Of a stretch of 64,000 bases of DNA, positions 12,368 through 49,800 are shown in pieces. The notes under the pieces were generated by a model, which was not told the origin of the DNA, searched no databases, and worked only from the letters and a program-made list of their open reading frames with translations. This stretch comes from Bugula neritina. Taxonomy: Eukaryota; Bryozoa; Gymnolaemata; Cheilostomatida; Bugulidae. The translations under genes and the position numbers were made by a program. Location of the stretch: the NCBI GenBank assembly GCA_964035545.1, contig OZ037765.1:35043504-35107503 (forward strand), in the 5' to 3' direction. Position 1 is the stretch's first letter. The number at the start of each line of letters is the position of its first letter.

Positions 12368-15300
12368 TTACTTCAAAGGTACTTTATCATGAAATTTAGG
12401 AAAAAAGAAAAGTTTCCTTAGATGAGTAAAAGAGCATTCTAGTCTGGCTGGTACATTTCCACCAACTGGTTCTCCTGTTTTCTTGCAATAAGCAATACTG
12501 ACTCGTCTAACTCTATCTTGTATCTGTGAGTGTGCAGATACAATATTATGGCTATTAAATTGTTAAAAGAAACATTCAACAGTTGTCTACCAAAGGAGCA
12601 AAGCCAATATAATTACTAAGCTCGTATAATTAACCTTGTTGAAAGCATCTTTCAATAGACCATGTAAGTTTGGTACATTTAGTACCTTGTACCAATTCTA
12701 GAATACTCACCACTATAACTTATATAAACTTCTGCAAGTTCAAATGCAAAATGCATACTTCTAGGAAATAGCTGTGCAACTTTTATTACATGCATTATTT
12801 TATTTCGTATCTTAAATTTATGAATCATGAGTTCATTTTTCAAAATGTTTAATTTAAGTGCTTAAAAAATGCAAATAAAAAGTACAAGTTTAAAAAAATA
12901 CCCTGGTGCAAATTGACCACAGCCCCAGCTGTTTTGGCAAAACACATTTAATGACATTTTCATCGACATAGTGGTAAATGGGCTGGTTGTTTTTGGCAGA
13001 TGGGTAGCACGCTGGCTGGCTGCAACTTTATACAATTCTGATTGGCTGGACTCTACATGACCAGCTAATGATTGTATCTGATTGGCCTAATAATTCATTT
13101 GCATTTGAAAATGTAGAGTTTTATATAAGTTATAGTAGTGATATTTTAGGGTTGGTACACACCCCTTTTTTGGTTGAGTTTTATAGTCTGATCACGCTGT
13201 AGTCATCTACAACACTTCAGTGTATGGGGAAATTATTAGTATTACGAAATCTGTTTTGGCTTATATTGCTATGCTAGTTTTCTGACTTAGTTTTTCATCA
13301 ACCATATGCAGGCTGTTCTAACTTGAGTGATTTCATCAAAGGTAGACATTACTTAGACCTTAGAACATCAAATCAACCAGTGCTGTTACTTGGTTTTATT
13401 GCAAAGCAGTAGTGAGAGCATAGCACACTTGCACAGTCACCTAGCTGCAATGGCAGTGGCCACACTAAACTCACCAGTTTTATTAAAATATCTTATGTAA
13501 GGCACCTAAATACACTAGCCTAGTCTGTTAGTATGTAGAGCAGTAGCACAGTTACAGCAGTCACACCACCCCTCTCTATCCTGTCTACCAAGTACAGAGG
13601 TTGCAAAAATGATAATCATTTCATGATTTAGTTTTAAATCAATGCATATTACTGAATACATTCTCATAGTCTGATTATTTTGTGCTTCAGCTTATTTTAA
13701 TGTGATAATTTAAAAAATTGCTTCACATGCATATTACAAATGCATGAACCTACGATAACCATAAATTATTTGCTTGTGCACTCACTACTGTTTTATTTTA
13801 AATTTATATAGCAGTAGCTTTTTTAATCAATCACATATTAATCTGCAAGAGTTTAATTGCACAAATAATGTAGACATTTTGTATAAAAATTAGTATTAAC
13901 ATGTAATGCCTTGCATGTGGGTCTATATTGCCAGTTGGTATCATCACCTATAATACCATGTTGATAACCCTTTCTTGTATACGATTTATTTAGCGAAACA
14001 GCATGATTATCTTACAAATGTACTGACATCAGCCATGGGACAATATAGTCTAGAGTCTAGACTCTAGAATCTAAACTCTAGATTCTTTTAACTGTGAAGT
14101 AATCAGCCTCAAACTATTGCTGGATGAAGTGCCTACACTTAGCTGTGAAGCTACTGCAATAACATCAACAATTTTACTAATGAGTTTTCAATACATGTTT
14201 TAGTCAGTCGGGTAAAATACAAAGGTTCTCTGGTATACGCTAGAATAAATGATGATTAAACATTGGATTTGATGAACATTTTTTTCATATTGTGTGATGC
14301 AACATGATATTTACAGAGAAACCGCTGATTCCACTAAAACTGTAATGAAGGCATTATATTTCAACACTGACTGCATACAACAATGTTACCAACAGAATAT
14401 TATCCAAAATAAGCATCGAGTCTGAGCTGCCATTTTATTTCACCCAAAAACCATTAATATCAGACTTTAGCTTACAAAGCATAGTGGTATAGCACATGCA
14501 TATACAATAGCACACCAAAAAATTTTTTATAAAGTGCTACACTTTATTGGTTACCAAGGGTGGCTGCAGAAAGCACAGCAGAATATTATAATCTTTTCTA
14601 AAAGAGGTGCAAACAGTAAGCTTACACCTCCAGGACTATTTAGGATATCAAGTCTTTTATGGGTTGATTGCTCTTTTAACCTGGATTCTAAGGATAGCAA
14701 TTAATTTAGTTTAGAGTTACTGCATTCTAGTCAGTTGAAAATGGCCTTTCTTTCCAGGTGGCATGGCCAGGAAATAAGTAAATACTGTAAGAAGATCGCC
14801 ATGGTATAGTAGAAATAGGTGTGCTCCGGAAGCACTATAGTGAAGTTTTAATGGCTGGCATATGGTATTGGATACTAGCCCTCAGAATGTTTTTGTCATC
14901 TTCCTGCCTCAATGGTGGTTGATGATTACTTTGAGTGAGGAAAAACATGTATTGAAAACTCATTAGTATAGCTTCAGAGCTAGGTGCAGATATTTCCTCA
15001 AACAATGACTTGAGACTGAGAAGCTCACATTAAATATCACTTAAAAATGAAGCAAGCTGCTAACAAAATTACTTCATAGTTGAAAAAACTGGACTATATT
15101 GTCCTATGGCTGATGGCATTGCATTTGTGGGATAAACATGCTGTTTCACTAAGGAAATCATGTACAAACTGGTGATGATACCAATTGTAACAGTATAAAC
15201 TAGCATGCCAAGCACTACAGGTTAAAGCTCAGTTTTATGTAAATCGTCTATGTTGTCTATTGCTAAAAGCTGTGCATTTTAACTCCTGCAAATAAATATG

Positions 15301-18300
15301 CAACCAAGTTGAAAAAATTACTGTTGTAATTTTTTTAAGTAAAATAATGGTGGGTACATAAGCAACTAATTTATGCTTAGCACATGCTTATACATGTGTT
15401 CGTCAGTGTGCTGTAAATATATGCTAGTGATGATAAATATGGTGCAGCACTGCCATTACAGTTCGCTGACTGTGCTATGCTATTGCTACTGTTTTGCAAT
15501 AGTAACAACAGTGTTTGATTTGCTGCACCTAAACAGTGTCTACCTTCGATGAAATCACCTAAGTTATATAGCTGCCTATGGTTTATTACAAACCAAGTCA
15601 GAAAACTGGCATAGAAATATAAGCCAAAACAGATTTCGTAATACTAATAATTTCCCCATACACTGAAGTGTTGTAGATGACTACAGCGTGATCAGACTAT
15701 AAAACTCAACCAAAAAAGGGGTGTGTACCAACCCTAAAACATCACCACTATAACTTATATAAAACTCTACATTTTCAAATGCAAATGAATTATTAGGCCA
15801 ATCAGATACAATCATTAGCTGGTCATGTAGAGTCCAGCCAATCAGAATTGTATAAAGTTGCAGCCAGCCAGTGTGCTACCCATCTGCCAAAAACAACCAG
15901 CCCATTTACCACTATGTCGATGAAAATGTCATTAAATGTGTTTTGCCAAAACAGCTGGGGCTGTGGTCAACTTGCACCAGGGTATTTTTTTAAACTTGTA
16001 CTTTTTATTTGCATTTTTAAGCACTTAAATTAAACATTTTGAAAAATGAACTCATGATTCATAAATTTAAGATACGAAATAAAATAATGCATGTAATAAA
16101 AGTTGCACAGCTATTTCCTAGAAGTATGCATTTTGCATTTGAACTTGCAGAAGTTTATATAAGTTATAGTGGTGAGTATTCTAGAATTGGTACAAGGTAC
16201 TAAATGTACCAAGCTTACATGGTCTAAGAACAGAACTTTTCTTTCAAGTATCATGTCTAGGAGAGTAGATTTAGGTAGACACAAAGGTAGCATGGGCATT
16301 ATGGCATTTAGAGGTTAGTTATTGTTCTAGACTTCTAGTACACCAGCAGAGATCACCAGCAGAGATTTTATATGGTGAATCAGGACCATTCATTTGACAA
16401 CTTACAATTTTAAACAATTCATCTATATCCCTGTGACAGCTGTGTCTGTAGAATGTAGCCACCAGTATTCTGATAAACCAGGTACCATAATTCTCATTCC
16501 TACCAGCTCTATAACCTACAACACAACAATACTTATTCACGCCTTTTTATAGCATCAGATTCAAGGTGCTTTTTCATCAAAACTTGGCTGTTGATACTTA
16601 CTCTCCGTACTGGGTTTCACTACATAAAAATCATCTGCATCTAAGTAGGTAGTCTTGTTGAAGTCGATGTTTGGTGGAACATTTTCAGCCATGTTTGGTG
16701 GAACATTTTCAGCCATGTTTGGTGGAACATTTTCAGCCATGTTTGGTGAAACATTTTCAGCCATGTTTGGTGAAACATTTTCAGCCATGTTTGGTGAAAC
16801 ATTTTCAGCCATGTTTGGTGAAACATTTTCAGCCATGTTTGGTGAAACATTTTCAGCCATGTTTGGTGGAACATTTTCAGCCATGTTTGGTGAAACATTT
16901 TCAGCCATGTTTGGTGAAACATTTTCAGCCATGTTTGGTGAAACATTTTCAGCCATGTTTGGTGAAACATTTTCAGCCATGTTTGGTGAAACATTTTCAG
17001 CCATGTTTGGTGAAACATTTTCAGCCGCTAAAGGTTGGTGTTGAGTTGGTGCTGAAGAGGCTGTTGTTGGTAGTGAGAAGTTGACAGAGTTTTGTGTGTG
17101 TGCATCAATTCCCATATCAATTCTACCTGCAATAATACAAAGCTGGTATACTTATCCACTTACACACTCTCAATAATACAAAGCTGGCATACTTATCCAC
17201 TTACACTCTCTCAATAATACAAAGCTGGTATACTTATCCACTTAACACTCTCAATAATACAAAGCTGGTATACTTATCCACTTACACACTCTCAATAATA
17301 CAAAGCTGGTATACTTATCCACTCAACACTCTCAATAATACAAAGCTGGCATACTTATCCACTTACACACTCTCAATAATACAAAATTACAGTTCTACTA
17401 TTCACATGTTGAACAATAAAGGAGTGGTCTCACTTGAAATAATTTTGAGTTGGAATTAAAATGGAGCTACTTAAATTGCTTAGCAAATAACTCCTATTAT
17501 GCTAATAAAACCATCTCAAAGTTTAAATTTAAGATAGGTGCTTGTGCAACAAAATAGCAAAACTATCAAATATCTGAACACTAAGTTTATGAATCTGAAT
17601 ATTTGAGGAAAACATAATTTTAATTATAAATGCTTGTACTTTATTATGAAATTTTAGTTGTTTTGTTGAATTAATGGTAAATGCTAGATTGTAGTAATTA
17701 ATAAAAGTATTAAATTTGCTTACTGCCAGAGCAGGCATGGAAAATGATGAGTTTGGGTTTTCCTCTCATGGCAGGAAATTTACTAGCTGAGAGTAAATCT
17801 TTGACTTCTGACAAGTTGACAGGCTTACAGTGTCTGTCATAGAAGATGTTTCCAGAAGTTCCGTGTGACATGATGACTAGAATGAACATGCCTAGATCCT
17901 TGTGATCTCTGTGGGTGGTCTCTTTCCTCACTTCTGATAATATTTCCTGTTGGAATAATTTTTTCCATCAGGTGTGTAATAATATCAAAAGAAAATTTAC
18001 GATAAATGAAAAATATTTTGGTATTTTTAAAACAAAATACAGTATTTTTCTGTAGACAAGAGATGCACCCAAAATACAGTATATTTCTATAGACAAAAGA
18101 TGCACCCAAAGAGTAAATTGGACTGCAGCAACTATGAATGCACCAGCACTAATTTAATCACCTTTTTACTTAAGTCAAAGAGAGGATCATCTTCATTAGC
18201 TACAATGAATCCCATGTCTTTGAACAGTTTACTGATATTGTAGTAGTCAATATAAGAACCATCTCGGGTTGCCTCAGTCAGTTCACTGCCATCATCCCGA

Positions 18301-21300
18301 AAGAATCTCTCATTGTTTATGATCATGACACGACCTCTAACAGGGTCACTCATCGCATAAACCTCCAAATAAATTAAACAGTTAAATTTACCTATCGAAA
18401 TTTTGAATTCACTGAAACAACCTGTTTAAAGTGAACATTGTTAAACTCAGCAATAACTTGTCAGTTGCACACATGCATTTATAACATTTAAAAAGTCTCA
18501 TTTGGGCCCCATAATAAGTGTTAACAAAAATTCACCTCTAAATTTTTAAGTTGCCTTAAATATTGAATGCCAGTCTGAAAATTTCTACGTTACAATTATT
18601 GTTCAGTAATAGCCTCTAGTCAAATTACAAAATTTTTCTCAACATTTGCTGCTGCAACTTTTGCTAGTTGAACATGCCAGCGACTTAAGCTCACGATTCT
18701 CACTAGCACATGAAAAATTTGAAACCGCAATGAGATATAACCCAATATTCTATGAGTACTTAAATAAGAAGCAATTGAAGTGATTAAATAGAAAATTACT
18801 TGTCTGTGGTCATCAAACAACTGCCTAACTCGTTCATTGTTGGTAGGCCTTAGTTTCATGCCATCAACCATAGATATGAAAGGTTCAAGGTCATCTTTAG
18901 TAAAATCAGCATATCCTTCCTCTTCTACATCAGAGCATTCACTGATGTTGTCATCTTCCATCTGGGTTTTAACAACTTGCTGTGGTTTACCTTTAGCATA
19001 CAATTTAATTCATCAGTATTAGCATCATGGTGATAATTAGGTTAAACAGTATAATTGTAACTATTTTATCATTTTTAGGCCTTTGAAGATGATGACAAAC
19101 TGGAATAGACAATAGAACTTTTATGGGATGAGCTAGCCAAAGAGACCAAACATCAAGTAAGTTGAAGGAGCATGTGTTTAGAATAGATGAAGTCTAGAAA
19201 CAAAATATCATTAAAAGTCCCCATATAGGTGTAGTCATGTGAATTAATGATATATAATGAATATTGTACCATTGTCATTGAATGAATTTTGTTTCAGTTG
19301 GTTGACATGCTCCTTGATACTATGAGCTTCATCTCTGGAAAGTGGACCACCTGTTGCAAGACGAATAACATCAGCTTTTTCGTTGAACATAAGTAATGAA
19401 ATACAAATGAATAATTAAAATTAATAAATAATTTTAGCACATACATGGATAAATCAGAGCACTTGGTATCTCCTCATCATTGCATAAAGTTGTTGAAAAC
19501 CCACTGCACAGCTGCACATTTTTTGGCTGATGCTTTAAAGAGCGAAGGCACCATTGGGGCCTCAACACTTTCTTTGGGCAAGTATGTCCAAGTAACAGAC
19601 AGTGAGCACAAAAACTGGTAGTCACTGGTCTACTCGCTGGCCAGGTTTCCAAAACATTCTTTAAAATATTGTTTGCAGTTACAATGATTTTTTCCCACAT
19701 TTTGCTGATATTGGCAGCATCAGATGAGACATAGAGCAGGATCTTTCTGTGCTTGTAGTCATGCATCAGTTGGGTGTAAATCCCATCCTGGTACACATTT
19801 GCTCCATTTCTTTTCACGTGCAACACAGCAAAATCATCAGGAAAAAGTTCCAGCAAACCAACAGTCATCTGATGGTAAACATATTGTGGAAGTGCCAATC
19901 CATTGAAATGAGTCTCAACTTTGAGGTGCATGTTCTTTTGTGAAGAGTCAAATGAGTTGTAGTACTTATTTGCAAATGGTGGTATAATAAAGCATGGTTC
20001 CTTGAACTCTTCATATAAAGGACCATACAACAATCGGAATGTCTTGAGTAGACAAACTGCAATTCTCATATCAGTGGGACTGCTGAAGGAGGTTTCTGTT
20101 TTTATTAGATAGAGGAGAAGACTTTGCACCATCAGGCCTGTTTCAGAGAAATAGTTCACAAATTCTTCAAAATCTTGTTTTTCAATGCAAATCTCATCTT
20201 CTGAATAGTATGGCTGAAATTTTTCTATTCTTTTCTGCCATATGTCCTGTTCATGGTGGTAAAAGACACACAATAGTTTTGTGACCTCTTTTATTTTGTG
20301 GAATATGTACTGTTCCAAGGAGCCAATGTTTTCATACCACAAAACTTTCCCACAGTCATGCATGTACGTCAGAATGGTTTTCAATTGATTTTGTTCAATT
20401 TGACCAAGTTCTGCTTGCAATGCAGCCAGCGTCTCATCAATGGTACTGTATGCAGACTGCATGGACATAACCCTTTGATTGACTTCTTCCCACACTAGTG
20501 GGAGAGGTTTGACAAAATCATGACTACTTTCAAGGAGGGACTTCTTGATTAAGTCAAATATGTCATACTCATCATCTATTCCTACCTCATATATATTGCC
20601 ACGAGGAAAAACCCCTTCAGGTGATTTGCTAAAATGCTGTATTTGGGCAAAATCACCTTCTAGTGCTTTTTCTTCTTCAAGAATTTTTTTGCACAGCTTA
20701 TTGGAGACTTCAAGAAAGCATTTTTTTAAATTTTGAAACCTGACATTTTCAAACTTATCTTTGTGAGTAAAGATAAGCTTGGGTGCACTAAGAACTGGAT
20801 TGGCCAGGTAAAGGTGTGACATGTAGTCAAATGCCAGCTTCCGGACAGCTTCATCTCTCGTTGATTCAGCTGAAGTTTGTTCATATTGTTGCATGTTCAC
20901 TACAATCACTGGTATACAGTTTTGTCTCAGTGTTAGTTGATATGTTATATGGTAGACCTCCTGACCTCCCATATCAATGAGACGAAGTGCTATGCCATCT
21001 ACCTCTACCTCTTCAATGTTGAATACTTTTGTTATTTCACTTTTCGCGGCCTCTGGGCTCCTATTTGTTAAAATTCTTTTTCGGTCGGGATTTTGCAATG
21101 TTTTAATTAGACTAGTTTTTCCCGCCATTGTGTTACCCAACACAGCTATTGTAACAAATGGTAAGTTTTTACCACTACCTTTAGCCATATCTTGGTAATA
21201 CTGTCTTACAGCATTTATTCCTCTCCTGCATACTTCCTGTGGGGGAGAGTTCAGGTTTTTGCTTTCTTGGACATTCAGCATTAATAGTTCAGTCATGTCT

Positions 21301-24300
21301 AATATACCAGGATCTAAAGATGTCAAGTAATTGTTTCTGCTAATGTCCAGCTTTTGCAAACTCTTCAGTGTAAATACACAAGAGGGTAAGCTGGTAAAGT
21401 TGTTCTCAGATAAGTCCAGGTTCCGTAACTTCTGAAGACTCTGTATGCTAAATAAAAATGTAAAAATGTTACATATACCCAGGTATTTTAATTGAAATTT
21501 TAGCTAAAAGTAAAGTCAGCAAAAATTTTACGTTGTCAAAAACCCATCAGAGGTGCCTAATATGGCTGCATTTTGTAGACACACATGAGATATACTACAC
21601 TATCTTATAATTTGTTGATGCCTTTTTTTCAGTTTTTTCCATGCACTGCTTTTCCGATTTGCCTTGAATAATTAATTTTGGACAAATCACCCATTTATCT
21701 GCAGCAGATTTTGATTTACATGTTCATTCATTCATTATATTTTTAACAATGAAAATGATGGGATATTTCAGATGTAATAATTTTTTTCTCTTCTAAAAAT
21801 TCAATATAATGGCACGAAGTTTACTCATTGTCATTTTTAGCATTAGTATTAGAGTGTGTAAATAAAAATTGAAGGTGTCGGTTCTGAAGTCTTCAATCAA
21901 CATGATTTGGTTACAACAAAGTTAACAAATAATGTGCTTGTTTAACCTATGAACACCAAGGTCTTATGAACTTTGCTAAGATAACTCCCAAATTAGCCTC
22001 GTATAGCTGCAGCGCCAAAGAGGCTTCGCTTGTGTTTTTTTTCAGTTATACATTTTTTTCTTTCACTTTTGACTAAATATAGCAAAACAAATCAAAAATG
22101 TGTAAAAGGAAGCTAATTTTTACTTTTCCTACAAAGTGTTTTAAATATATACATGTACATGTAGTTATTTAGTTATTTCAACTACGGACCCTTTTAATTC
22201 TGTAGTTATTTCAACTATGGACCCTCTTAATTCTGTAGTTCTTTTAACTATGGACCCTTTTAATTCTGTAGTTCTTTTAACTATGGAACCTTTTAATTCT
22301 GTAGTTCTTTTAACTATGGACCCTTTTAATTCTGTAGTTCTTTTAACTATGAAACCTTTTAATTCTGTACTTTTAACTATGGACCCTTTTAATTCTGTAG
22401 TTGTTTTAACTATGGACCCTTTTACAAACACAAGCTTGTGGCAAAATCTTGTTCTTCACAAACTTTTTTTTATAAGAATAAATTTTAAATTAACCTGAGT
22501 ATCAGAACACTGACCTGTTTGGCAGAGTTGTAAGACCGCAGTTTCTCAAATGTAACTCTCTCAGGGATACCAAAGGAGCCAAAGCATCATCTAGCAGCCC
22601 TTCAGATAAATTGTTACCCGTCACATTCAAGAATTCAATATTCTTCAGGTGAAAGATACTGAAACAAAACACAATGGTGTATAAAGTTTGGTCAATATGA
22701 TTACCCAATAGATTGTTGGTTTTTTAACCTTATTATGAAGCCACTTTGCCCCATCCTAAAAAAACGTATCCAGAATACTATTTCACCAGTTTTTTAGACA
22801 TGTGTGGGTCTTTTTGCCTACTTGCATTCTCAAACTTTACGCTGATATAATAAGTATATTAGGGCTAAAAATACGAATTTGAAATGATTTTTCAATGTTA
22901 GTACCAGTGCGCACACTAACTATGTTCAGCCCAGAGCCGGCTTAGAAAACTTTTGCTCAGTATGTTTGTAAGGCCTATCTAAATCCACATGATCAGATAT
23001 GATATTACTTCATCCTCCTCCCGATGTAGTAAGTCTGGCTTCAACAACCCCCTTCTCCGATGTGTAGTTCAGCTAATACCTCATATCCCTTTTCTAAGCT
23101 GGTTTTAATAAATTCAGAAATTTTTATTTTGGACTCTCAGATTTTAAGCAGTTTTTGGAGAATATGCCGGCTAGTCTGGGCTCTCTCGATGAGGTTCTCA
23201 TGCCTGTTCATTCCGTATTTCAATCGATTGTCATTAAGAGATTATATCTCATGTGGTTGATTCATATGTCATCTCGTCAAATCAAGATTTATAATAAAGA
23301 TATAGATTTTAAAGGTATGCAGCTTCACAAGAACATTACAAACTTTGTTCAACTTTTTTTTGCAATAGTTGCACAATAAAAACATCTGCAGCCACGTAGT
23401 TTTTTGATTTGCTTCATTGTGTTAGAGCCTCTATTTCTTTACAAAGCAAATGTTGAGCCAAGAGTTTTTGCATATACCCTTTGATATTTAAACAGCTTTT
23501 ATTTATATTGAAGCTTTTCAAATTCTCAAATTTTCAAACTAAACTTTTTTATTTTTTTTAATCTTGGAACTTGAAGCAATAAGATTTGCTCTCAATACAA
23601 CAACTTCCTCTACCTTTAGTAGACTTAATTTTTTGTTGCTCTAGCATTGGTGGTCTTTTGAATAGTTACCTACTTTTTTAGCCCTCAATATTGTCTCCCG
23701 GTAGTAGTCATCTATAAGTGTTTATAATATATTTTCCCACCTATAACTTGTGATTTTATCTCAATAGCCTCCTCACCTTGTCAAGTACTCAGCTGCTCAT
23801 GAGTCTGTCAAAATCTTTTTTCTTGATGTAGTTTTTATATTTATTGATAGCTACACTCAAGCACTCCTTAGACTTGGGCATTCCATCAGCTTTATACCTA
23901 ATTATATGTATGTAAACTTCTCCAAGGTTGGGAAAAGCAATTTTTTTCTTAATTTTTTCCACTTGAGCTTTTATCCTCTGACCATTGTCTCAGCTTCATA
24001 CCTTGGTAGCACCAATTAAATGTCATGTTTTCATGTGACTGTTTCAGGCATTCTATATGCATTTCAGTGATGCATGTTTCATTATCATTTATGGCTTTAA
24101 ACTTCCATTTTCTTATGTTTGTGCCAGTTATTTCATACACATTACCCATACACATTACCCATACACATTGCCCATACACATTACCCATTCACATTACCCA
24201 TACAAATTGCCCATACACATTACCCATACACTTTACCCATACACATTACCCATACACATTACCCATACACATTGCCCATACACATTACCCATACACTTTA

Positions 24301-27300
24301 CCCATACACATTACCCATACACATTACCCATACACATTGCCCATACACATTACCCATACACTTTACCCATACACATTACCCATACACATTACCCATACAC
24401 ATTACCCATACACATTACCCATTCACATTACCCATACACTTTACCCATACACATTACCCATACACATTACCCATACACATTGCCCATACACATTACCCAT
24501 ACACTTTACCCATACACATTACCCATACACATTACCCATACACTTTACCCATACACATTGCCCATACACATTACCCATACACTTTACCCATACACATTAC
24601 CCATACACATTACCCATACACATTACCCATACACTTTACCCATACACATTGCCCATACACATTACCCATACACTTTACCCATACACATTACCCATACACT
24701 TTACCCATACACATTGCCCATACACATTACCCATACACTTTACCCATACACATTACTCATACACATTACCCATACACATTGCCCATACACATTACCCATA
24801 CACATTGCCCATACCCTTTTCTCATAAAAAAGGTCAATGATTCCTAAAAATCATATAGTTCTAATGATTTTCCGCATATTGTTTGAAACTGCAGTTGGGA
24901 TTTTGCTTTTTTACCAGTCAGCACAATGTTTTGTATATTAAGAAAGATAAGCATGCCTGCTTTTAGTTCTGATTTTTCTCTGAATTGTTATGCTAATGCA
25001 AAAAAACCCATAATTTATGTATTTTTCTAGCTTTTAAATGCAGCAATGATGTGGTTTTTAGAGTAGAGATTATTGCGGTCCTAATCTCATTTTTATGGGA
25101 GACCTTTTTTTCAGGACATAATCAAATGACCAACTCCTGAGCATTTGGCCATCAAACTAATCTACAGCTCTTTCAGATACTTCATCTTTTTTCCTAATAA
25201 GTTAAAAATATATTGTCAAGTAAGCCAAATAGCTGCTAGACCCTATGACCACTTTTGTCTGTGATATTCTCCAATGTTACATTCTGCTCATAAGCCTACA
25301 CCATTCATAGAAAGGATATCTGAGTTGACTGTGCCATCTATCATAACTGAAATACAAGCTCGTAGTAGCAACTCCATATGATCTTATAGTTTATGTCTCA
25401 TTTCATCAGCTTGGTAATCTAGAATAATTTTTTAATGTCAAGAAAAACTATTTTTACCATTATTTTCCATAAGTAGCTATGTATAGCCAAGTTTTTGTTA
25501 TAATAATAATGTGTACTACTGTGAAAACTACTGCCCCCCCCCCCCCCCCCATGGCGAAATGAGCAGCTAGTGTGCTAACCTTCACACTATAGGCTCTACT
25601 GGAGCATCACAACCCCACTGTTACAACTAATCTTTATTGCTGGTTGAATTTTAATTTTTCCTATGCTCAATATTTCTTTGACTTTTGATATTGGCAGCAG
25701 GTATATACATTCTCTTACTTAGTGGTACTGAGTGCCTAAATTTAAAGCTTTTAAATCATCCTAGTGATTAATATGGTATCAGCCAAGAAGAGAATGTGAC
25801 GCAAGTTAACAATTATCAGTAATAATTCTACCTCCACTGACCCAGGGCGATATCATGAGCAGGTAAGCTTAAACTATTATCAGCAAGTTAAAGGTTTGTG
25901 TGGGCAGAGCTTAATTGTAGGAGTAGAAAACTTTAAAACTGCATTCAGCTGATTGATGGCCGTATGTTTCTGAATATTTTAACATCACAGGATACAACTA
26001 GTTCATCCTGCTTATTACAAAACCAAGTCAATGCTAAATGAAACAGCTGTAATACTATTTGTAGATGGGCTGCACCAGACTATGGAAACCATTGACTGCT
26101 AGGAAACATTAAGTGGACCATCAAGTGACTCATTAAGAATGTGGTATAGCAATCCTAAGTCAGGGATGGTGCATATGAAGACCACAAGGTGTGCTCATAT
26201 ATGGCTATCTATGCAGTGGGGAGAACTTTAACTAGAAGGACCTGGCTAACATTCTGAACACTAAGTTAAATAAGTCAATTGAAGAACTAAATTTACATGT
26301 GCTATTAAATTGTCTAGCTCTAAAACTGAATAAATTTATTACAAATTTACAATGGAGAGATTATTGGATCCAGCAAGTTGTTGGGAAGATGGCCAGAACA
26401 ATGTCTACTAGTTTGCTCTCACCTGTTTGGTAGAGTCGTCAGGTTACAGTCCCTCATAGTCAGCTCTCTCAGTGATTGTAAGGATGTGAACATGTAGTCA
26501 GGCAGGCCTCCAGATAGCTTATTCCCCGATATATTCAATACTTGAAGATTCTTGAGCAAGGTTATACTGTAACATAAAACATAGCAGAATACACTGTAAT
26601 ATAACACATAGCAGAATACACTGTAATATAACACATAGCAGAATACACTGTAATATAACACATAGCAGAATACACTGTAACATAAAACATAGCAGAATAC
26701 ACTGTAATATAACACCTAGCAGAATATACTGTAATATAACACATAGCAGAATACACTGTAACATAGCACATAGCAGAATATACTGTAATATAACACATAG
26801 CAGAATATACTGTAATATAACACATAGCAGAATATACTGTAATATAACACATAGCAGAATATACTGTAATATAACACATAGCAGAATACACTGTAATATA
26901 ACACATAGCAGAATATACTGTAATATAACACATAGCAGAATATACTGTAATATAACACATAGCAGAATACACTGTAATATAACACATAGCAGAATATACT
27001 GTAATATAACACATAGCAGAATATACTGTAATATAACACATAGCAGAATACACTGTAATATAACACATAGCAGAATACACTGTAATATAACACATAGCAG
27101 AATACACTGTAATATAACACATAGCAGAATATACTGTAATATAACACATAGCCCACTTATGCTCTAGCATAGCATACGACAAGATTTTTCAATAATGCAA
27201 TACTTTAATAAGTGATTGTGTTCAGGAGTTGTGTTAGGAGACCCCATCTCTAAGTAAAAGTGTAGTCACATCAATATAATGTCACTTGTGTTGGTGTAGT

Positions 27301-27707
27301 AACAGGAGTCACTGAAACTTGTCTAATAACAGTCCAGTGACAGTCTAATAACAGTTCTAGTAACAGTCTAGTAACAATCCAATAGCAGTTCTGTAAGCCT
27401 AGGGCCGCACTGTGCGTATTTTCGCATGCGAAAATTTAAATTACAAGTAGCAAAGGTGTCCACTGTGCGCGTTGAGAAAACATTGACACTTGTCGCTCTG
27501 CATTCTCAACGCAAGTGTGAATCGTCTTTGTGGTCGTCACCTAACTGGCTGGTAGTTATTTAGCGAGCCCAATTCTTTTATTTTAGTGCTACATTCCAGT
27601 AAATTGCGTTTTATTGAAAGCGAGTGCGATTTAAAAATGACAGCTTTATTTATCACGCATCACTGACGCTACAGTGGACACCTTGGCTACCTGTGGTTTC
27701 AATTTTC

Positions 27708-27792
<85 letters not shown>

Positions 27793-30698
27793 ATCAATTG
27801 TAATTACTTAGATGTAGAACTAGACTTGTAATAAATGGTAATAATGTAATAACCTAAATTTGCTTCCCTCTTGTACACTACACAAGTACAAGTAGTGTAT
27901 CTTCTATCATTCTACTATATTATTACTCTAGTGTTGAGGTTGTAAGAGTGAGTGTAGTGAATGAAATGATCATCTGTTAAACACACCTGTTTGGTAGAGT
28001 CGTCAGTTCACAGCCCTCCATGTGCAGCTCTTTCAGAGATAGTAAGGATGTGAATGTGTTGGAGAACAGGTGGGTAAATACTCTGTTCCCAGAGATGTTC
28101 AGCACAACGAGCTTCCTCAGAAGAGATAGGCTACAAAATACACCTCACCTTATCTAACTGATCATAAGTTGCTACTATAGAATATACTATAGAATATACT
28201 ATAGAATATACTATAGAATATACTATAGAATATACTATAGAATAGAATAGATGGTTTGTATAACATGGAATAATATACATTAATTAATGCAATTATTACT
28301 CAGGGAGATGGTTACATACAAGTACACAATTAGTTAAATGTATTGTATGTGTAATAATCCAATAATTCTATTTGTTTCATTGAAAATAAAAGCCTAGTAC
28401 AACATGATGCGTAGTTAGTAGTTGCTGCCAGGACTATAACATTCAGTGAGAATAATGTTTATCCTTTGTGATACAGGGGAAGATAATATTTCTTTACGAT
28501 TTTAAATACTTAGTTTAGATTAGAATATTGCAGTCTAATATTGAAATGACTAGCAATAGCTGCTGCAGAAAAAAAGCTAAATGATACTAAGACTAAATTT
28601 GGCCAGCAAATAAGGGAATCACTAACCAACCCTCTACCCTGAGCAGTATATTGAGTGCTGCTACTCTCAGCTGAAGGTATGTTTACTAATGTGCACACAA
28701 CTCCATGAAGTATATACAGCCACACTGACCTACATAGTGAATAGAAAACTTTGTACCTGTTGAAGTTGGCATTTCTACATAAACTTTTCAGTCTCAGATG
28801 TGTGAGATGAGGAAAGAGAGTGTTGAGATTTGGGGGAAATTCACCCTCCAGTATGACATGAGTCACTGCATGACGTCTGCTTATGTCACTGAGCTCTCCT
28901 ACAGTGTAGGCAGATGTTATATTCCTCACCCAGTTGCGATCGGCTGCATGGACGATGTGCCTGTTGAACCAAACCTTGTACCTCCCTACAGTTTATATAA
29001 GACAAAGTATACCCCAGTGTAGACCTACTAATGCAGGCTAGTGACTTGGAGCTACCCATGGTATTGTCCCATCACGCAGACAAGTATAATGGTCTAGGTA
29101 TTCTAGGGTCACACATGTGTTCAATTCACAAGAGATTCCCATTTAATCTAATTTAACTAGTTTATATTTAATCATGAGCACCTATAAGATGGGCTGGGTG
29201 GTACACCTAGCAGGTAAAATTTTCCCTGGAAATAGGCATAAAACATAAATGTTTATAGTATCGGAAAATTATTAGTTGGTGAAACATTCATGTGTATTTT
29301 ATTCTAGAACTTGTCAGAGCTAGACTGTAGTTTTCTCCATGTTTTACTCAGTTTACATTATCAACAGGAATATTATTAAACTACTGCTGAGCCAAGAGGC
29401 ATTGTTTTTCATTTAGTAAATAAGTTACATTAGCTGCACGAACTCCGAACTCTGTGTTGCAACATGTTTTTGTCAGTAAGAGATATTTGGTGCAAGTTGA
29501 TGATTACCAAACAGTTTGAATGAGGAAACAAGATGTGAAGTGATGGCCACACAGTTCCTACTAGCACAGCACTGAACACTGAATATTACAGCTTTTAACT
29601 TACTATATTTAGACTGGGTTATACACCAACCTATAACACAATGATTCCATTAGTTTTGGTATACATTCTATATAGTATATACTGTATAGTATGTACTGTA
29701 TAGTATATACTATATAGTATAATATACTATATATAGGGACTTCTTGTAGATAAGAATTGGTTCACTGACTCCACGAAGATGGCATATAAATAATATCATA
29801 AACATACAAATTACTACTTGATAATATCCGGATTCGTGACACTTGAGAGGTCAATGAATCAGGAGAAGGCAAAGGTCATCCCTTAGCTCAATGACCTTTG
29901 CATCAACTCTGATTGTTTTTCTTGGTAATGCGGTGGAAATGTTTCACTGTGTTATGAATATACAGGAAATAGAAACAGTGATGACTTGTGGCTCTTGACC
30001 TAAATTTTCACAGTTAGCTGAGAAAATGGAGTATTTTTGAGAAGTGAGTTCCATAAAATAGTTCAAAGATTTGAATGTATAGTTGGAGTCTGGTAGTGCA
30101 TATATCTCAATATTTTAGTTCTGACCACTAGAACTCCTTAAATCAGTACTCTTTCAGATTGGGGCCAGTTAAGCAATGCTATATGATGTTATAGTCAGAT
30201 TTTAAGACACCTAAGTCAGGGGTAACACCACGTTGTGTTATATTAGTAGTTGTGTAGATTATAATCTCCAAAGAGTTATAGTATAAAGATTGTGTACATA
30301 TATATCTACCATTCTCACAATATTATTCAACATTTGGAAGGTTTTTAAGACCTCCTTCTCCGTACAGTCACTGTTCAACACTTGCAACACATCCTCAAAG
30401 TGTTGATAGAATTAATATTATAACAATTATGGAGTATTACCACTGAAATATATTTACACAACTACTACTAGCTGTTGTTATATATATTGTCGTTATCAGT
30501 AAAATGCGGAGAAATCAGAAATAATTTGCAAACTTAAATGTTCATAGTATAAACATGCAGTTTCCAAAATCTTAGCTATTCACTGCTTCAGTTTCTATTT
30601 ATAGAAATTGAATGAAAAACTGAGAACATTGTAATTCACTCACCTCTGGTAGCCGAGAGTTGAGCAGGATGGCCAGCTACCAACTTACGTTGAGACAT
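12368..30698 (-). CDS. LRR-Roc-COR-caspase fusion protein, 13 exons, 1409 aa
   Basis: Thirteen exons with matching phases join into one 4230-bp frame: 30644-30698, 28757-28985, 27987-28130, 26423-26566, 22515-22658, 19445-21447, 19270-19374, 18800-18990, 18162-18362, 17724-17946, 16602-17126, 16406-16515, 12368-12523. Domains seen: leucine-rich repeats (about residues 60-300); Roc GTPase with P-loop GNTMAGKTS (about 343-351), switch II DMGGQE (397-402) and THKD (466-469); COR region to about 880 ending in CAHC and GHTC; an acidic linker; caspase p20 from about 1006 (RGRVMIINNERFF, TRDGS, catalytic His in IMSHG about 1100, catalytic Cys in HACSG about 1144); a 175-residue linker; p10 from about 1322 (YRAGRN, GTWFIRIL, then RLECSFTHLRKLFFF). 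ROCO proteins are GTPase switches and caspases are Cys-Asp proteases; linking them implies GTPase- or ligand-gated proteolysis (inference). The start ATG precedes a strong donor. The weakest junction is 19374/19445. The least certain claim is single-transcript continuity. Confidence 0.88.
12656..16226. mobile_element. Long inverted-repeat (foldback-type) element in the last caspase intron
   Basis: Two arms of about 1.5 kb (12658 to about 14210 and about 14940 to 16224) are inverted copies of each other around a loop of about 0.7 kb. The outer ~640 bp of each arm is nearly identical: the first 40 bases differ at one position, and the terminal tagaccatgtaag appears as cttacatggtcta at the other end. 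Inner parts are diverged and gapped but still alignable, for example at 13930-14040 against 15080-15190. A TA lies at each outer boundary, consistent with a TA target duplication. Each arm also contains a smaller internal inverted repeat (tataacttatataaa region). No transposase ORF is visible, so it is non-autonomous. It lies wholly inside the intron between exons 12 and 13 of the LRR-Roc-COR-caspase gene. Confidence 0.85.
16667..17027 (-). repeat. 24-bp coding minisatellite, 15 copies, in the caspase linker
   Basis: Fifteen in-frame units encode AENVSPNM or AENVPPNM, inside exon 11 between the p20 and p10 halves of the caspase. A 24-bp unit preserves frame whatever the copy number, so length variation would be tolerated. 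All other frames also stay open, which explains the overlapping antisense ORFs here. Confidence 0.95.
17132..17393. repeat. About 41-bp minisatellite next to exon 11 acceptor
   Basis: About six copies. On the minus strand each contains ctttgtattattg, identical to the tract directly before the genuine exon 11 acceptor (17127), where the next bases are cag. The intron array is thus built from acceptor-proximal sequence. Confidence 0.85.
22165..22425. repeat. 30-bp minisatellite, about 8 copies, intron 5 of the caspase fusion gene
   Basis: The unit carries ctatggacccttttaattc. A 30-bp period keeps frames open on both strands, giving spurious short ORFs. Confidence 0.9.
24127..24820. repeat. 13-bp minisatellite, about 52 copies, intron 4 of the caspase fusion gene
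   Basis: The unit is cacattacccata, with substitutions giving cattg or ctttac variants distributed in a patterned way that suggests larger-block duplications. All three plus frames are open through it, purely because the unit lacks stop codons. Confidence 0.95.
25532..25551. repeat. Poly-C tract
   Basis: An uninterrupted run of about 18 C within intron 4 of the caspase fusion gene. The opposite strand is a G-run able to form a quadruplex. Confidence 0.9.
26570..27152. repeat. 27-bp minisatellite reiterating the exon 4 acceptor
   Basis: About 21 copies in intron 3 of the caspase fusion gene. On the minus strand each unit ends in ttatattacag or close variants, matching the genuine exon 4 acceptor (ttatgttacag at 26567). 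The spliceosome therefore faces a ladder of similar 3' splice sites upstream of the real one. Confidence 0.9.
27709..27788. repeat. (TA)n microsatellite
   Basis: About 39 uninterrupted TA dinucleotides in intron 3 of the caspase fusion gene. Confidence 0.95.
28172..28245. repeat. 12-bp tandem repeat (tatactatagaa)
   Basis: About six copies just upstream, in gene direction, of the first 144-bp LRR exon. Confidence 0.85.
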
Positions 30699-33527: not shown

Positions 33528-37734
<4,207 letters not shown>

Positions 37735-39767
37735 TTTATTTTCCCTTCACACTCTTGATAATTATGCTTAATTCCAGAAGACAAAAATAACAGAGATTAT
37801 AAAAACGAAGTCGACAACGTATAGAATACAGAAAACATAAACCTAGTCCTACGGCTTTAGAATTCTAAACCGGATGTTTCCTATTTCAAGCTCTTTGGTA
37901 GTAGAAAATCCTGAAAAGTTGTCTAAACATTGATGTCTAAGTAAATGGTGTCGACAGTATTGTTATTTTGTTGAAGAGATTAATTACACTTGCGCATTAT
38001 CAATAGATAGCAGGTAGCATATATAGTTAGTTACCTGTAATAGTATTAAACAATACACCAAAGGCACACGATTATGCCAATCTGACAAAATCATGTTGAA
38101 AATAAAAAATAATATCAAATTCAACTTGATAAATTATTAATTATTACTATTACCATTACAGTACTACTATTACTATTAGTATTAGTAATTACTAATTCAG
38201 TAATTAGTAATTACTATTACGTATTATTACTACTAATACTTACTTGACTTACTTGAAGATGCAATCACGTTAGACCACTAGATTAGTGTAAGCGACGTGC
38301 CTCGTTTGGTGAACAGAATTATTAAATGTAGTTAATACTTTTATCGCATAAGTGCAGTTCTGTTTTAAGACTTTGGTGCCAGTACAGGGCCTTATGAGTC
38401 CTGTCTGTGAGCAGCATTTGATGTTATTTTCATATCACGTATTGTTCTGGGTAGGAAGCTGGCATGAAATAGTATTAGTTTTAGTATTACTGATAGTAAT
38501 GCTTATACTAAATAACTATAGTATTAGTATTACTATAGTAATAGTATTACTATTACTATTAGTATAAGTATTACACTATTAGTATTACTATTAGTATTAG
38601 TATTACTATTACTATTAGTATTACTATTTGAGTATTCCACCAGTCAGTATTACTGTCAGTGGGACCTAGACCGATTATGAGAGTAATCATTATCATTATG
38701 ATTATCACTATCAGTCTAGCTTCAGCCTGATTTTCTCAAAAATACGATAAATTGAACCTCAAGTAATTGTGATTATTTTCTAAGTGATAGTGATAGTGAT
38801 GCCAACAAATAATTGACACATATTTATACTAACTGACCATATTCATACTAAGAGTAAATCTTAGTCTTACTCTTAGTCTTACTCATAGCTTTAGGCTTCA
38901 AGCTATGCCCATAGGCTGCGGGCATATGCCATAGTGATAATCATGGTGGTGCTCATGCTGGGCTTAAATTGGTAATAATTATACTATTTATGATATAAAA
39001 AACTAAATAATGCTGCTGTTAGATTTACTATTTCTATCAGTATCAGCATTAAATTCAATTGTGTAAATTGTAGTTACTCACTGATAATTGTAATTTTACC
39101 ACTTTTAGCGGTATTTAGTTTTACTTGAGTAAATGTAAAACTAAATCAAAATGACTAGTTGCCCCTAAGGATAGTGAACTTTGGCTTATGCTTACTGGTT
39201 CAGACTTTGTAATTGACAACAATGACAGTGCTACTGATGCTTGTTGTTTATGAAATTATATAAGTTATATAATAATTATCATACGATATTTAAGTTGAAT
39301 GCATATTCATATTCTCAGATGGTAACTGTGCCAAAGCTACTACTAGTACTTCAGAATAGAAAAAAAATTAACTTTTTGATATCTAATAGCTGACTAATGC
39401 TTTTACAGTTTACTATTAGTTTCATTCTTTCTTCTCAGTGTTTATTCACTTTGCCAATCACTTGAATTCAACAATACCTCCTGCATACAAAATCTCTGCA
39501 TAAAACTCACTTATTGGTGCATATCTTTGTTTCATATATTGACTAATTAATTTCAACTTAATTAATTTTAGATATTGTTAAAATGGAACTAGGCCCTGTT
39601 TGGTTGTAGTTTCAGTGCCTATCACCAAAATTACAATTAATAATAAATATGTGTGCGTATTTTTAAAGAAATTTTTTTATAGGCATTTTATCAACAAAAC
39701 GTTGAGTGAACTTGTAAAATAAACTTTACTGCTTAAGGTTTTTATTTTAGCATCAAGTTTACAAACT
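37735..39767. other. GOLPH3-ELP5 divergent intergenic region
   Basis: Carries the presumed promoters of both genes. Triplet-like low complexity occupies 38130-38640, with a LINE 3' terminus embedded (listed separately). No additional gene recognised. Confidence 0.6.
38238..38473 (-). mobile_element. Severely 5'-truncated LINE copy (3' terminus only)
   Basis: Matches 7197-7430 over about 235 bp with a single difference noticed (agcagc against agcaac). It retains only the last ~27 codons of the reverse transcriptase ORF and the 3' UTR with the aagtaagtc tail. The near-identity of two copies 31 kb apart implies recent activity of this family. Confidence 0.85.
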
Positions 39768-40016
39768 ATGTTCTACACTTCTATGTTCTACAGTTCTATG
39801 TTCTACAGTCTATGTTCTACACTTCTATGTCCTACAGTCTATGTTCTACAGTTCTATGTTCTACAGTTCTATGTTCTACAGTCTATGTTCTACAGTTCTA
39901 TGTTCTACACTTCTATGTTCTACAGTTCTATGTCCTACAGTCTATGTTCTACACTTCTATGTCCTACAGTCTATGCTCTACAGTTCTATGTTCTACAGTT
40001 CTATGTTCTACAGGTC
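39768..40016. repeat. 15-bp minisatellite upstream of ELP5
   Basis: Unit ttctatgttctacag with shortened copies. Every copy ends in ctacag, a 3' splice acceptor, and the last copy abuts the sequence leading into the ELP5 start. It may be an intron end in the 5' UTR. It keeps all frames open, so the apparent N-terminal extension of ELP5 through it is artefactual. Confidence 0.85.
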
Positions 40017-40039
40017 TAGGGTCTATCGAGAAACAAGTC

Positions 40040-41299
40040 ATGCTTGAAGACTTAATCAACAACTTGAGGTGTGAGTCCTCTCTACTTATCAAAGACTCTT
40101 TGAGGAAAAGTGGGGCGTGTCTTATAAAGTCGTTGACCAATCAGGCTTTGAGTCAACAGAAACCTCTCCTTTATATAAACACAGAACCTCTATTCGGCAA
40201 CAGACATAGCCTTGGCTCTCTAGGAGTCCAGAATGTCGACGTGTTTGGCCAGTATGACTCGCTAAAGGAGAGAATTATGAGCAGCGTCAGCTCTGCTAAC
40301 ACCGTTCTGGTCTTTCCTTCCATCTCGCTTCTCCTTCTCAGCTACTCTGTTGGGCGCTTTGCCAAGCTGTTACGGGCACTTCGGGAAAGTGATAGGGTCA
40401 ACTCTGTTATAGCGCTGATGCACACAGATGTTGTATTGAATGAAGAGGTCGTGGACAGGCTAGACTACTTTTTTAGTTCAATAATTCACGTTCTACCGCC
40501 CGAATCTGAACTCTCTGTGTACTACGCTCAAGTGAAATGTTTGAGACGCAAATCTAACGGTAAACTGGAAACTTCCGAGGAATATTTTACACTGGATGAC
40601 TCATGCAGTTTGAAGCTGGTCCACTCGTCGTCTTCTGCAGTAGTGAGGTCGTACACTCAGTCTCAGTCTGGTGATGTTGTCTCTAGCCTCACTTTCAACC
40701 TGTCCCTCAGTGATAAAGAGCGAGAGGCTAAGAATAGACTCCATCTTCCCTATCTCAAGAAAGACTCGGAGAAACAGGCACTGCTTTCACAGACCCACAA
40801 TGGAAGGTAATAACAGCTTCAGCCACTACATAGCACTACATAGCACTACATAGCACTACATAGTACTACATAGCACTGCATAGCACTACATAGTACTACA
40901 TAGCACTACATAGCACTGCATAGCACTGCATAGCACTACATAGCACTACATAGCACTACATAGCACTACATAGCACTACATAGCACTACATAGCACTACA
41001 TAGCACTACATAGCACTACATAGCACTATATACTCAACATAGTACTATATTCTCAACATATCGGTGATAGTTTGGTCACCAAGAGAGATAACTCTCATAA
41101 TTTCTTCTTTTTTGTCTGATATAAAAATTAGTCAATAATTTCTTGTAACTTCATTTTCTCTAATTTCAGTTCTGGACGGCCATTAATTTCTATCGGTGAT
41201 GAGTCATCGCAGACAAACCCCGGAGGGAAGATTTACTATCACTACGACGAGGCCGATGACTTTGATGATGAAGACCCTGATGACGATTTAGATATTTGA
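40040..41299 (+). CDS. ELP5: Elongator complex protein 5, 2 exons
   Basis: Exons 40040-40806 and 41170-41299 join in phase to 298 residues, the usual length of animal ELP5. The ATG at 40040 gives MLEDLINNL, comparable to the family N-terminus. Upstream codons come from a minisatellite. The family-diagnostic C-terminal half is present: LTFNLSLSDKEREAKNRLHL, then the acidic tail YHYDEADDFDDEDPDDDLDI. ELP5 is part of the Elp4-Elp5-Elp6 RecA-like ring of Elongator, which modifies wobble uridine 34 of tRNAs in the cytoplasm. Animal ELP5 lacks ATPase motifs and none is seen here. An AATAAA lies near 41673 on the plus strand, about 375 bases past the stop. Confidence 0.95.
40825..41040. repeat. 10-bp minisatellite (tagcactaca), ELP5 intron
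   Basis: About 20 copies, nearly invariant, starting some 20 bases after the donor. Confidence 0.95.
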
Positions 41300-46800: not shown

Positions 46801-49800
46801 AACAGAGTAGGTAACAGAGTAGGTAATAGAGAAGGTAACAGAGTAGGCAATAGAGTAGGTAACACAGGAGGTAATAGAGTAGGTGGACACATGTGACTCA
46901 CCAGGAAGTCTGTCTATAGGCATCAGGGCTGACTCAGCAACCGACTTCACTTCCAACCAGACTTTCTCCCTGGCGACAACTCTCTCAAGGTACTTGACAA
47001 GTTCTTGCAGCTGCTGTACTATCATGAATGAGAAGAGCCTGTCTAGCCCTGTCAGCCCCATGACATCCACACTTTGCTACCAAAGATTATATATACTTAT
47101 AGTGTAGCTCCACACTCTGCTACCAAAGATTATATATATTTATAGTGTAGCTCCACGCTGTGCTACCAAAGATTATATATATACTTATAGCGTAGCTCCA
47201 CACTCTGCTACCAAAGATTATATATATTTATAGTGTAGCTCCACACTCTGCTACCAAAGATTATATATATACTTATAGCGTAGCTCCACACTCTGCTACC
47301 AAAGATTATATATATTTATAGTGGTCAGGTCAGGATCTAATAACCTGCTACTGGTACCATGTAATCCAGTACCACCTGTTTCATGATCGAGCCGCTGGCG
47401 ACTAAACCAGTGTACACCCGCTGCCTTGCGGGATGTGTTTCAAATAAACACAAAGGCTATGGGAGGTGGTCCCTATACAAACACAACGGGTCTGTGAACA
47501 CTCGTCAGGAAACTGAAAGGGCGAATGAATTCCATGAATCAACGGCCATTCACTGCAACTAGGTATGTTTTCCAGTCGTCGAGGCTCCCTTGCCACTGGA
47601 TCCATACATGCCTAGCCAAGCTTACAGAGTATCGTTTCGTGCGACAATGCTCTATACCACGCACAGCTTCTGCTTGCAACCCTCCTCAAGCCCTGCGGCG
47701 ATTGGAGCGTAGCGACGGGAACAGGGAAGTGAAGCCTGGAAGTTTCCAGTTACAAACCAGCACGTAGGCGGTAGAGATTTATCAGTCGCTCAACTTAGGA
47801 CAGGGAGCAGTATGGTTGTTCGGTAGTGATCTCTATGACTGAGCAGTCCTTTTTAGGACCCACTCTGCTCACCTCAATCAGAGGAGAGGGCTAGAAAAGG
47901 TGCCCCAAACATAGTCTGCTCCCAACTCAACCTGGCTGGATTACCGCGTCCAGCGGGTTCACCTCTTTGCGGTCAGAAAATACAAATGAACATAGCAACC
48001 TGGAATGTACGGACAATGATGGACAATGATAAATCAAACAGACCTGAGAGAAGAACGGCTTTCATAGCTCGTGAACTCAGAAGACTAAATGTAGACATAG
48101 CAGCCCTTCAGGAAACTCGCTTAGCTGATGAAGGGCAGCTCACGGAAATTGGTGGTGGGTACACTTTTTTCTGGAGAGGGAAACCAGCTGATGAACAGAG
48201 AGTTCATGGGGTTGGTTTCGCTATCAAGAATGAGGTTGTGAGGAAACTCGACCAGCTACCAGTGGGAATCAACGACAGGATGATGACTCTCCAACTAAAC
48301 CTACGCCGCAACAGGAAAGCAACATTGATTTCAGCATATGCACCGACATTGCTTGCTGATCATCAGGAAAAGGAGCAGTTCTACTCCAATCTAGATATGG
48401 TTCTATCAGGGATCCCCAAGAGTGCGAAAATCATGGTCCTTGGAGATTTCAATGCTCGGGTTGGAAAAGATCACCATGTGTGGAAAAAGATAATTGGTAA
48501 AGATGGGACTGGGAAGCTAAATAGCAATGGGGAAATACTGCTCACCAAATGTGCTGAACACTCCTTGGTAATCACAAACACTCTTTTTAGACAGAAAGAC
48601 CGACGCAAGACCTCATGGAGACATCCCAGATCTGGCCACTGGCACCTTATCGACTACATCATTGTCAAACAACGGGATGTGCAGGATGTGTGTATAACCC
48701 GAGCTATGGACCTATCTGATGCTTGCTGGACAGACCATCGACTGATTCTGGCAAAAATGAACATATGTATTCATCCAAAACAAATGAACAGGAAAAGAAA
48801 GCAGACAAAAATAAATCTATCGCTGCTCAACCAGCCAGAAATAAAGCAGAGCTTCCAAAGTGAGCTCACAGAGAATATCCAAGATATTGATATAAATTCT
48901 ACTCATGGCAGCTGGGAAGTTCTGAGAGATTCGATCTTGAAAACATGCCACTCAACCCTGGGTAAACCAGAACGAAAACATGAAGATTGGTTTGATGACA
49001 ACGAACAAGAAATAAACGAGCTCATAAAGGAGAAACGCCATGCTTTCAGCTTATGGCACCAAGACTATAGAAATGTGGAAAAAAGGGAACATTATCATAA
49101 AATGAGAAGGAAAGTACAGGCGAGAATAAGGACAATAAAAAATGACTGGTGGATCCGAAAATCTGAGGAGCTTCAGAGACTTGCTGAGACAAACAGTAGC
49201 AAAGAGTTCTTTTCCGCTACGAAGAGATTGTATGGCCCAATTTTTGGAGGATGTGGGCCAATAGCTTCCAAAGATGGTTCCACAATACATAAGGGGAAAG
49301 ATGAGATCAAGGGCAGATGGGCTGAACATTTCTCAGAGCTGCTTAACCAAGACACTATGGTAGATGAGAAGACCTTAGAATGTCTGCCACAACTGTCAAT
49401 ACTGACCCACCTAGCCGAACCCCCAACGATTGACGAACTTGAGAAAGCATTATCCATGACTAAGTCAGGAAAAGCTGCCGGACCGGATGGAATACCTGGA
49501 GAGATTTTTAAAGGTGGTGGGCTAGAATTGAACAGAAAATTGCTGGAGCTCTTTCAGCTGATTTGGGAAAAAGAATCACTTCATCCTGATCTGAAGGATG
49601 CTAATATTGTAACTCTTTACAAGAAGGGTAACAGAGCCGATTGTGGAAACTATAGGGGTATCTCTCTGCTATCCATTGCTGGAAAGCTTCTGGCGAGAAT
49701 AGTTAGTTTTAGACTTGGCCAATTGACAGAGAGATGCCTACCAGAGAGCCAATGTGGCTTCAGACCTTACCGAGGAACTGTGGATATGATTTTTGCTGCT

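Follow-up and report, generated by a model that had tools for sequence, protein, structure and literature searches.

The window, a stretch of 64,000 nucleotides of Bugula neritina DNA, carries on its minus strand a predicted gene (30698..12368) whose encoded chain runs through LRR, Roc, COR and linker to caspase (p20, then p10). When the gene is rebuilt from the sequence, its 13 exons have GT/AG borders and keep a consistent phase across the joins, as a preliminary description of this DNA had proposed; the length given there (4,230 bp, 1,409 residues) was revised, after a small boundary difference, to 4,161 bp with the stop codon and 1,386 residues. For comparison we took 10 kb around each of 20 paralogue loci, the best-scoring of 64, which lie on contigs C1, C3 and C5, with no copies from C6 (Table 1). 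Ahead of the Roc-COR exon, each paralogue stretch reaches only ~2 kb, which limits the count for exon 2, and no start exon was identified in the stretch upstream of exon 2 at L017 and L020. Elsewhere in the window are matches to GOLPH3 (GPP34; 33528-33953), an Elongator subunit (Iki1; 39737-40810) and strumpellin (58482-58991), and a LINE-type open frame (47857-51174) in which an endonuclease and a reverse transcriptase are encoded.

Table 1. Exons of the predicted gene, the insertion in its last intron, and matches to the exons at the 20 paralogue loci.
Feature	Position	Strand	Content	Paralogue loci
Exon 1	30689..30698	-	10 nt, start codon; doubtful (ATG and GT donor, frame alone)	
Exon 2	28757..28985	-	N-terminal region before the LRRs	2/20 (tblastn), 48-49% identical
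Exon 3	27987..28130	-	LRR module, 144 nt, phase 2-2	13/20 (tblastn)
Exon 4	26423..26566	-	LRR module, 144 nt, phase 2-2	13/20 (tblastn)
Exon 5	22515..22658	-	LRR module, 144 nt, phase 2-2	14/20 (tblastn)
Exon 6	19445..21447	-	last LRRs, Roc GTPase, COR region	20/20 (tblastn)
Exon 7	19270..19350	-	linker	12/20, at loose limit E 0.5
Exon 8	18800..18990	-	acidic linker to caspase	16/20 (tblastn)
Exon 9	18162..18362	-	caspase p20 first part, S1-pocket Arg	20/20 (tblastn)
Exon 10	17724..17946	-	caspase p20 second part, His (MSHG) and Cys (HACSG)	19/20 (tblastn)
Exon 11	16602..17126	-	p20-p10 linker with 24-bp coding repeat	10/20 (tblastn)
Exon 12	16406..16515	-	caspase p10 first part	17/20 (tblastn)
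Exon 13	12368..12523	-	caspase p10 end, stop codon	13/20 (tblastn)
Foldback insertion, last intron	12641..16241		inverted arms: 447 nt (98%) and 257 nt (91%)	

Pfam profiles match the LRRs, the Roc domain, the COR region and both caspase subunits in the joined model, in agreement with the preliminary description, with COR-A remaining below the cut-off. LRR_8 gave an E-value of 8.5e-20, and Roc (PF08477) passed the Pfam cut-off with 2.6e-7 on the joined model and gave 9.8e-8 on exon 6, where the P-loop, DxGGQE and THKD motifs claimed earlier are present as GNTMAGKTS, DMGGQE and THKD. In an alignment of 13 copies (the window and 12 of the 20 paralogue loci), DMGGQE is invariant, GNTMAGKT has one position changed in a single copy, and the K of THKD is altered in two. 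The COR-A match is weak in the window copy (E 0.0078 on exon 6, 0.008 on the joined model), is found in 13/13 aligned copies with a best E of 0.0018, and exceeds the cut-off at several more distant loci where a caspase is also present. Searching the PDB with exon 6 returned the Chlorobium Roco structure 6hlu (E 1.6e-14) and LRRK1 (2.6e-11), with LRR-Roc covered and COR not, and a profile of the 13 copies gave no better COR coverage than exon 6 by itself. The LRR-Roc part is thus similar to that of the ROCO proteins LRRK1, LRRK2 and Chlorobium Roco; these proteins and DAPK1 carry a kinase or other domains at the place of the caspase. A Pfam scan of the joined model found no NACHT, CARD or DED, the latter two at E up to 0.1. 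A single-sequence AlphaFold model of exon 6 was discarded as of no use (mean pLDDT 33.5).

The caspase part matches Peptidase_C14 (PF00656) with E 2e-26 over residues 991-1344, p20 and p10 lying in one chain, and a PDB query from which most of the repeat linker was left out matched chains of caspase-3 (E 1.7e-24), the His and the Cys being present. The two subunits and the catalytic residues described earlier are therefore confirmed, the residues lying in MSHG and HACSG. Aligned with caspase-3, whose S1-pocket set of Arg, Gln and Arg we take as the reference, the window copy keeps both arginines and has His for the Gln before the catalytic Cys. It shares with animal caspases of the C14A type (caspase-3, -6) the p20/p10 order, the His, the Cys and the two S1 arginines, but differs from them in having LRR-Roc-COR for CARD or DED, His for the S1 Gln, and a long repeat linker. 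That linker is lengthened by a coding repeat of 24 bp (AENVSPNM) in 15 copies (16667-17026), an array absent from the three paralogue linkers compared (L009, L017 and L028), and the last intron, which holds the foldback insertion, measures <0.8 kb at the 16 paralogue loci where both flanking exons were found. The 3.6-kb foldback and the repeat disturb the window copy, and L022, a paralogue of type A as defined below, has a stop in exon 12, as might be seen if the locus were a pseudogene or an assembly artefact. However, not one stop codon lies inside the 13 joined exons and the same structure recurs at 20 loci on three contigs, making this explanation extremely improbable.

The predicted gene, which the preliminary description treated as a lone one, has many relatives in the same genome. 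We found at least 65 matches to the Roc-COR exon, itself included (65 of 181 candidates scored), the other 64 listed being 59-70% identical to it, and 135 matches to caspase exon 10. A caspase exon lies <12 kb downstream on the same strand of 64 of the 65 listed Roc-COR exons (972 to 11,578 bases away, median 1.6 kb); for the remaining one the distance is 15.4 kb. In the upstream direction, only one of the 65 has a same-strand caspase exon within 12 kb. Outside these 65, 22 of 24 COR-A matches are followed 1.9-3.4 kb downstream by a caspase exon from among those remaining, and the two that are not are short exons. A further 15 Roc matches picked by hand comprised three of the 65, two of the COR-A loci, four new pairs and six with no such caspase exon. 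Together these make 90 distinct Roc-COR/caspase pairs (64 + 22 + 4), called by distance and strand, with gene structure examined in the window copy and at the 20 paralogue loci. In these lists, 45 of the 135 caspase exons have no partner. The recurrence of the pairing, at 64 of 65 listed exons, rules out a chance join, and the window gene very likely belongs, to judge from these genomic matches, to a large family of animal genes built as LRR-Roc-COR-linker-caspase. The apparent very long open frame of one paralogue was due to a run of N and was rejected.

The pairing might also arise if a ROCO gene and a caspase gene formed a co-directional pair of neighbours that was kept and duplicated together. 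The splice borders of the 20 loci bear directly on this. The Roc-COR exon ends at a phase 1 donor at the same codon in 20/20 loci, the exon 8 donor keeps its codon and phase in 20/20, and exon 9, which opens the caspase, has its acceptor in 20/20 (17 exact, three one codon off). As the Roc-COR exon closes with a donor and the caspase opens with an acceptor, two separate genes are hard to square with these borders. Between them, the exon 7 acceptor falls at the same codon in 11/12 loci and its donor four codons further on in 12/12, and the exon 8 acceptor is exact in 0/20, the beginning of that exon being variable. Within the caspase, the exon 9 donor is exact in 11/20 loci, both splice sites are exact in 19/19 for exon 10 and at the same codon in 17/17 for exon 12, and the exon 13 acceptor is at the same codon in 15/16. 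Close to its beginning, exon 9 has a Met in 20/20 loci, which could initiate a caspase-only product, and could also give a caspase-only isoform of a single gene. Exon 8 has an in-frame Met 20-26 residues before its end in 20/20 loci, inside a conserved block, and another 59-69 residues before the end in 9/20; ahead of the block, no Met is common to all 20 loci, which again speaks against two genes. No intronless copy spanning exons 6-10 was seen among 149 listed matches (146 of 275 candidates scored). We consider the two-gene arrangement highly unlikely. Taken together, the pairing and the conserved splice borders suggest that a single gene very probably includes the LRR, Roc, COR and caspase exons, as first proposed.

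The caspases of the 20 loci are of two types. Compared with the window, those of type A (11 loci) have a dS of 0.16-0.58 over exons 9 and 10, L024 exon 9 (1.28) excepted, with higher values in exon 12 (0.44-0.97) and exon 13 (0.89-1.35; one value not computable). Those of type B (9 loci) share 35-47% identity with the window over exons 9 and 10. Reading the alignment by eye at the 19 loci with exon 10, we found the catalytic His in all 19 and the Cys in 18, with Tyr in L026, while the Gln ahead of the Cys is kept only in L024 and replaced in the other 18. The p10 Arg is kept in 10/10 type A loci and in 3/7 type B loci (L026 being among the three, where the alignment is unsure), and is changed in the other four. 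Such replacements would be in keeping with a single gene whose caspase part acts mainly as a regulator, a decoy or a protease of altered specificity in the manner of cFLIP, and not as an executioner; the S1-pocket Gln, the p10 Arg of type B and the Cys of L026 all point this way. The near-complete retention of His and Cys and the two S1 arginines of the window copy argue against it, as do the median dN/dS values of 0.18 for exon 9 (12 sequences) and 0.26 for exon 10 (11) among type A. We regard a mainly regulatory caspase as unlikely, if less so than two genes. The type A caspases, that of the window included, look competent from their residues, possibly with a shifted specificity, and the type B caspases look more degenerate. 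For the remaining exons, the median dN/dS was 0.29 in the Roc-COR exon (the six of 12 type A sequences that are of equal length) and 0.27 in exon 8 (12 type A sequences), and exon 7 gave 0.52 (10 type A sequences, one row being out of register). These ratios show that the Roc-COR exon and the caspase exons are under purifying selection.

In the Roc-COR exon, the window differs from the 20 paralogues by a dS of 1.6-2.5 and a dN of ~0.2 whatever the type of caspase. A quick tree of exons 9 and 10 separates types A and B with a support of 99, whereas the Roc-COR tree, also a quick one and with the window on a long branch, does not unite the type B copies, a single clade of them being rejected (AU p 0.0001). 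This conflict between the two trees indicates that caspase parts have been exchanged between Roc-COR parts, most clearly around exon 10. Across 21 LRR exons from 13 loci, amino-acid variability was 0.445 at ten exposed positions versus 0.117 elsewhere, a value reached by 4 of 10,000 random sets; the ten positions were set by the LRR pattern LxxLxLxxN, but after the variability profile had been viewed. The concentration of LRR variability on exposed positions is clear from this alignment. The pN/pS ratio is 2.07 at the exposed positions versus 0.74 elsewhere, and as 41 of 300 random codon sets reached the exposed value, positive selection is not shown.

The preliminary description knew of no described protein that has the switch GTPase and the protease in one chain. 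Caspase is reported to be one of the at least 24 C-terminal domains that bacterial LRR-AP-GTPase(Roc)-COR proteins carry (PMC8195603). As a bacterial LRR-Roc-COR-caspase is thus already in print, the architecture is not new as such and the earlier statement is not supported. The bacterial conflict proteins are alike in their LRR, Roc and COR, in the option of a C-terminal caspase and in having several paralogues in one bacterium, but effectors differ among the copies of one bacterium (PMC8195603), whereas ~90 loci share the caspase in Bugula neritina. Furthermore, the Bugula neritina caspase is of the animal p20/p10 type and is split by introns. A search for prokaryotic relatives with two short patterns, which reach only fairly close relatives, gave 45 pattern matches, of which 0 were confirmed. 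Among animals, the closest arrangement that we found is NG1 of sea anemones, an LRR-Roc/Ras-TIR protein with a weak, low-threshold COR (PMC5094078). It is likewise an LRR-Roc-COR chain with an immune effector, the effector being TIR there and caspase here. For sponge NLR architectures, a figure legend names CASc and COR, and the legend leaves the protein unspecified (PMC12909245). We found no description of an animal LRR-Roc-COR-caspase family in the open-access literature; as far as our searches go, the combination is known in bacteria and undescribed as an animal family.

The best explanation as a whole is, in our judgement, one gene of an LRR-Roc-COR-caspase family in which sensing, a dimer switch and caspase activation would follow one another, and we hold it to be likely. 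In such a protein the LRRs would sense a ligand, and the GTP state of Roc-COR would control dimerisation, as in other ROCO proteins. Dimerisation would then unite two caspase domains, leading to activation and to cutting at the p20-p10 linker, and a single chain would serve as a receptor for death or inflammation, with no adaptor. LRR sensing, the ROCO dimer switch and activation of caspases by proximity are each established in other systems, and by analogy a logic of sensor, switch and executioner in one predicted chain is plausible. In the well-known animal pathways, sensors, adaptors and caspases are separate proteins. The NLR inflammasome proteins are alike in logic, having an LRR sensor, an NTPase switch and a caspase output, but the window chain has Roc-COR in place of NACHT and no adaptor. 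If expressed as read, the gene would provide a receptor equipped with its own executioner, as part of an expanded family in an animal, and would link GTPases of the LRRK2 type directly to caspase activation. It would also offer a one-protein system for the control of a protease by the ROCO GTP cycle, and would show an animal using the LRR-Roc-COR-effector logic of bacteria.

A more speculative extension concerns the family as a whole. The ~90 LRR-ROCO-caspase receptors might stand in for the NLR-adaptor-caspase pathway, with exposed LRR residues diversifying for the recognition of pathogens or of self and non-self and caspase parts being swapped like cartridges, so that sensing and killing would evolve separately within one chain. 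We offer this only tentatively, and consider it rather doubtful in its entirety. In the hunt for other expansions of death receptors, an exon-by-exon search of the genome, run with no animal control, gave at least one NACHT match at E<=1e-4, which is a lower bound, and four CARD matches. At C2:9943461-9945862, a Roc exon and a CARD exon lie ~2 kb apart on the same strand and are perhaps parts of a CARD-ROCO gene.

Two further observations concern the source of the DNA. A Hox cluster (C1:22636300-22695900) shares the contig of the window, ~12 Mb away, and there an Antennapedia query matched homeoboxes 92, 86, 64 and 62% identical to it within 60 kb. The homeobox with 92% identity is followed by KLTGP, presumably the Lox5 mark of spiralians, and we take the other three to be Hox4/5-, Hox2- and Post2-like. 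The cluster with its KLTGP motif points to a spiralian, and not to the early-branching animal that the preliminary description had supposed; a sponge origin was rejected on the same ground. Finally, small contigs such as C58, C90, C99 and C282 contain Roc-like matches with several in-frame TAA or TAG codons and no TGA, as would be expected of ciliate contigs in the assembly.
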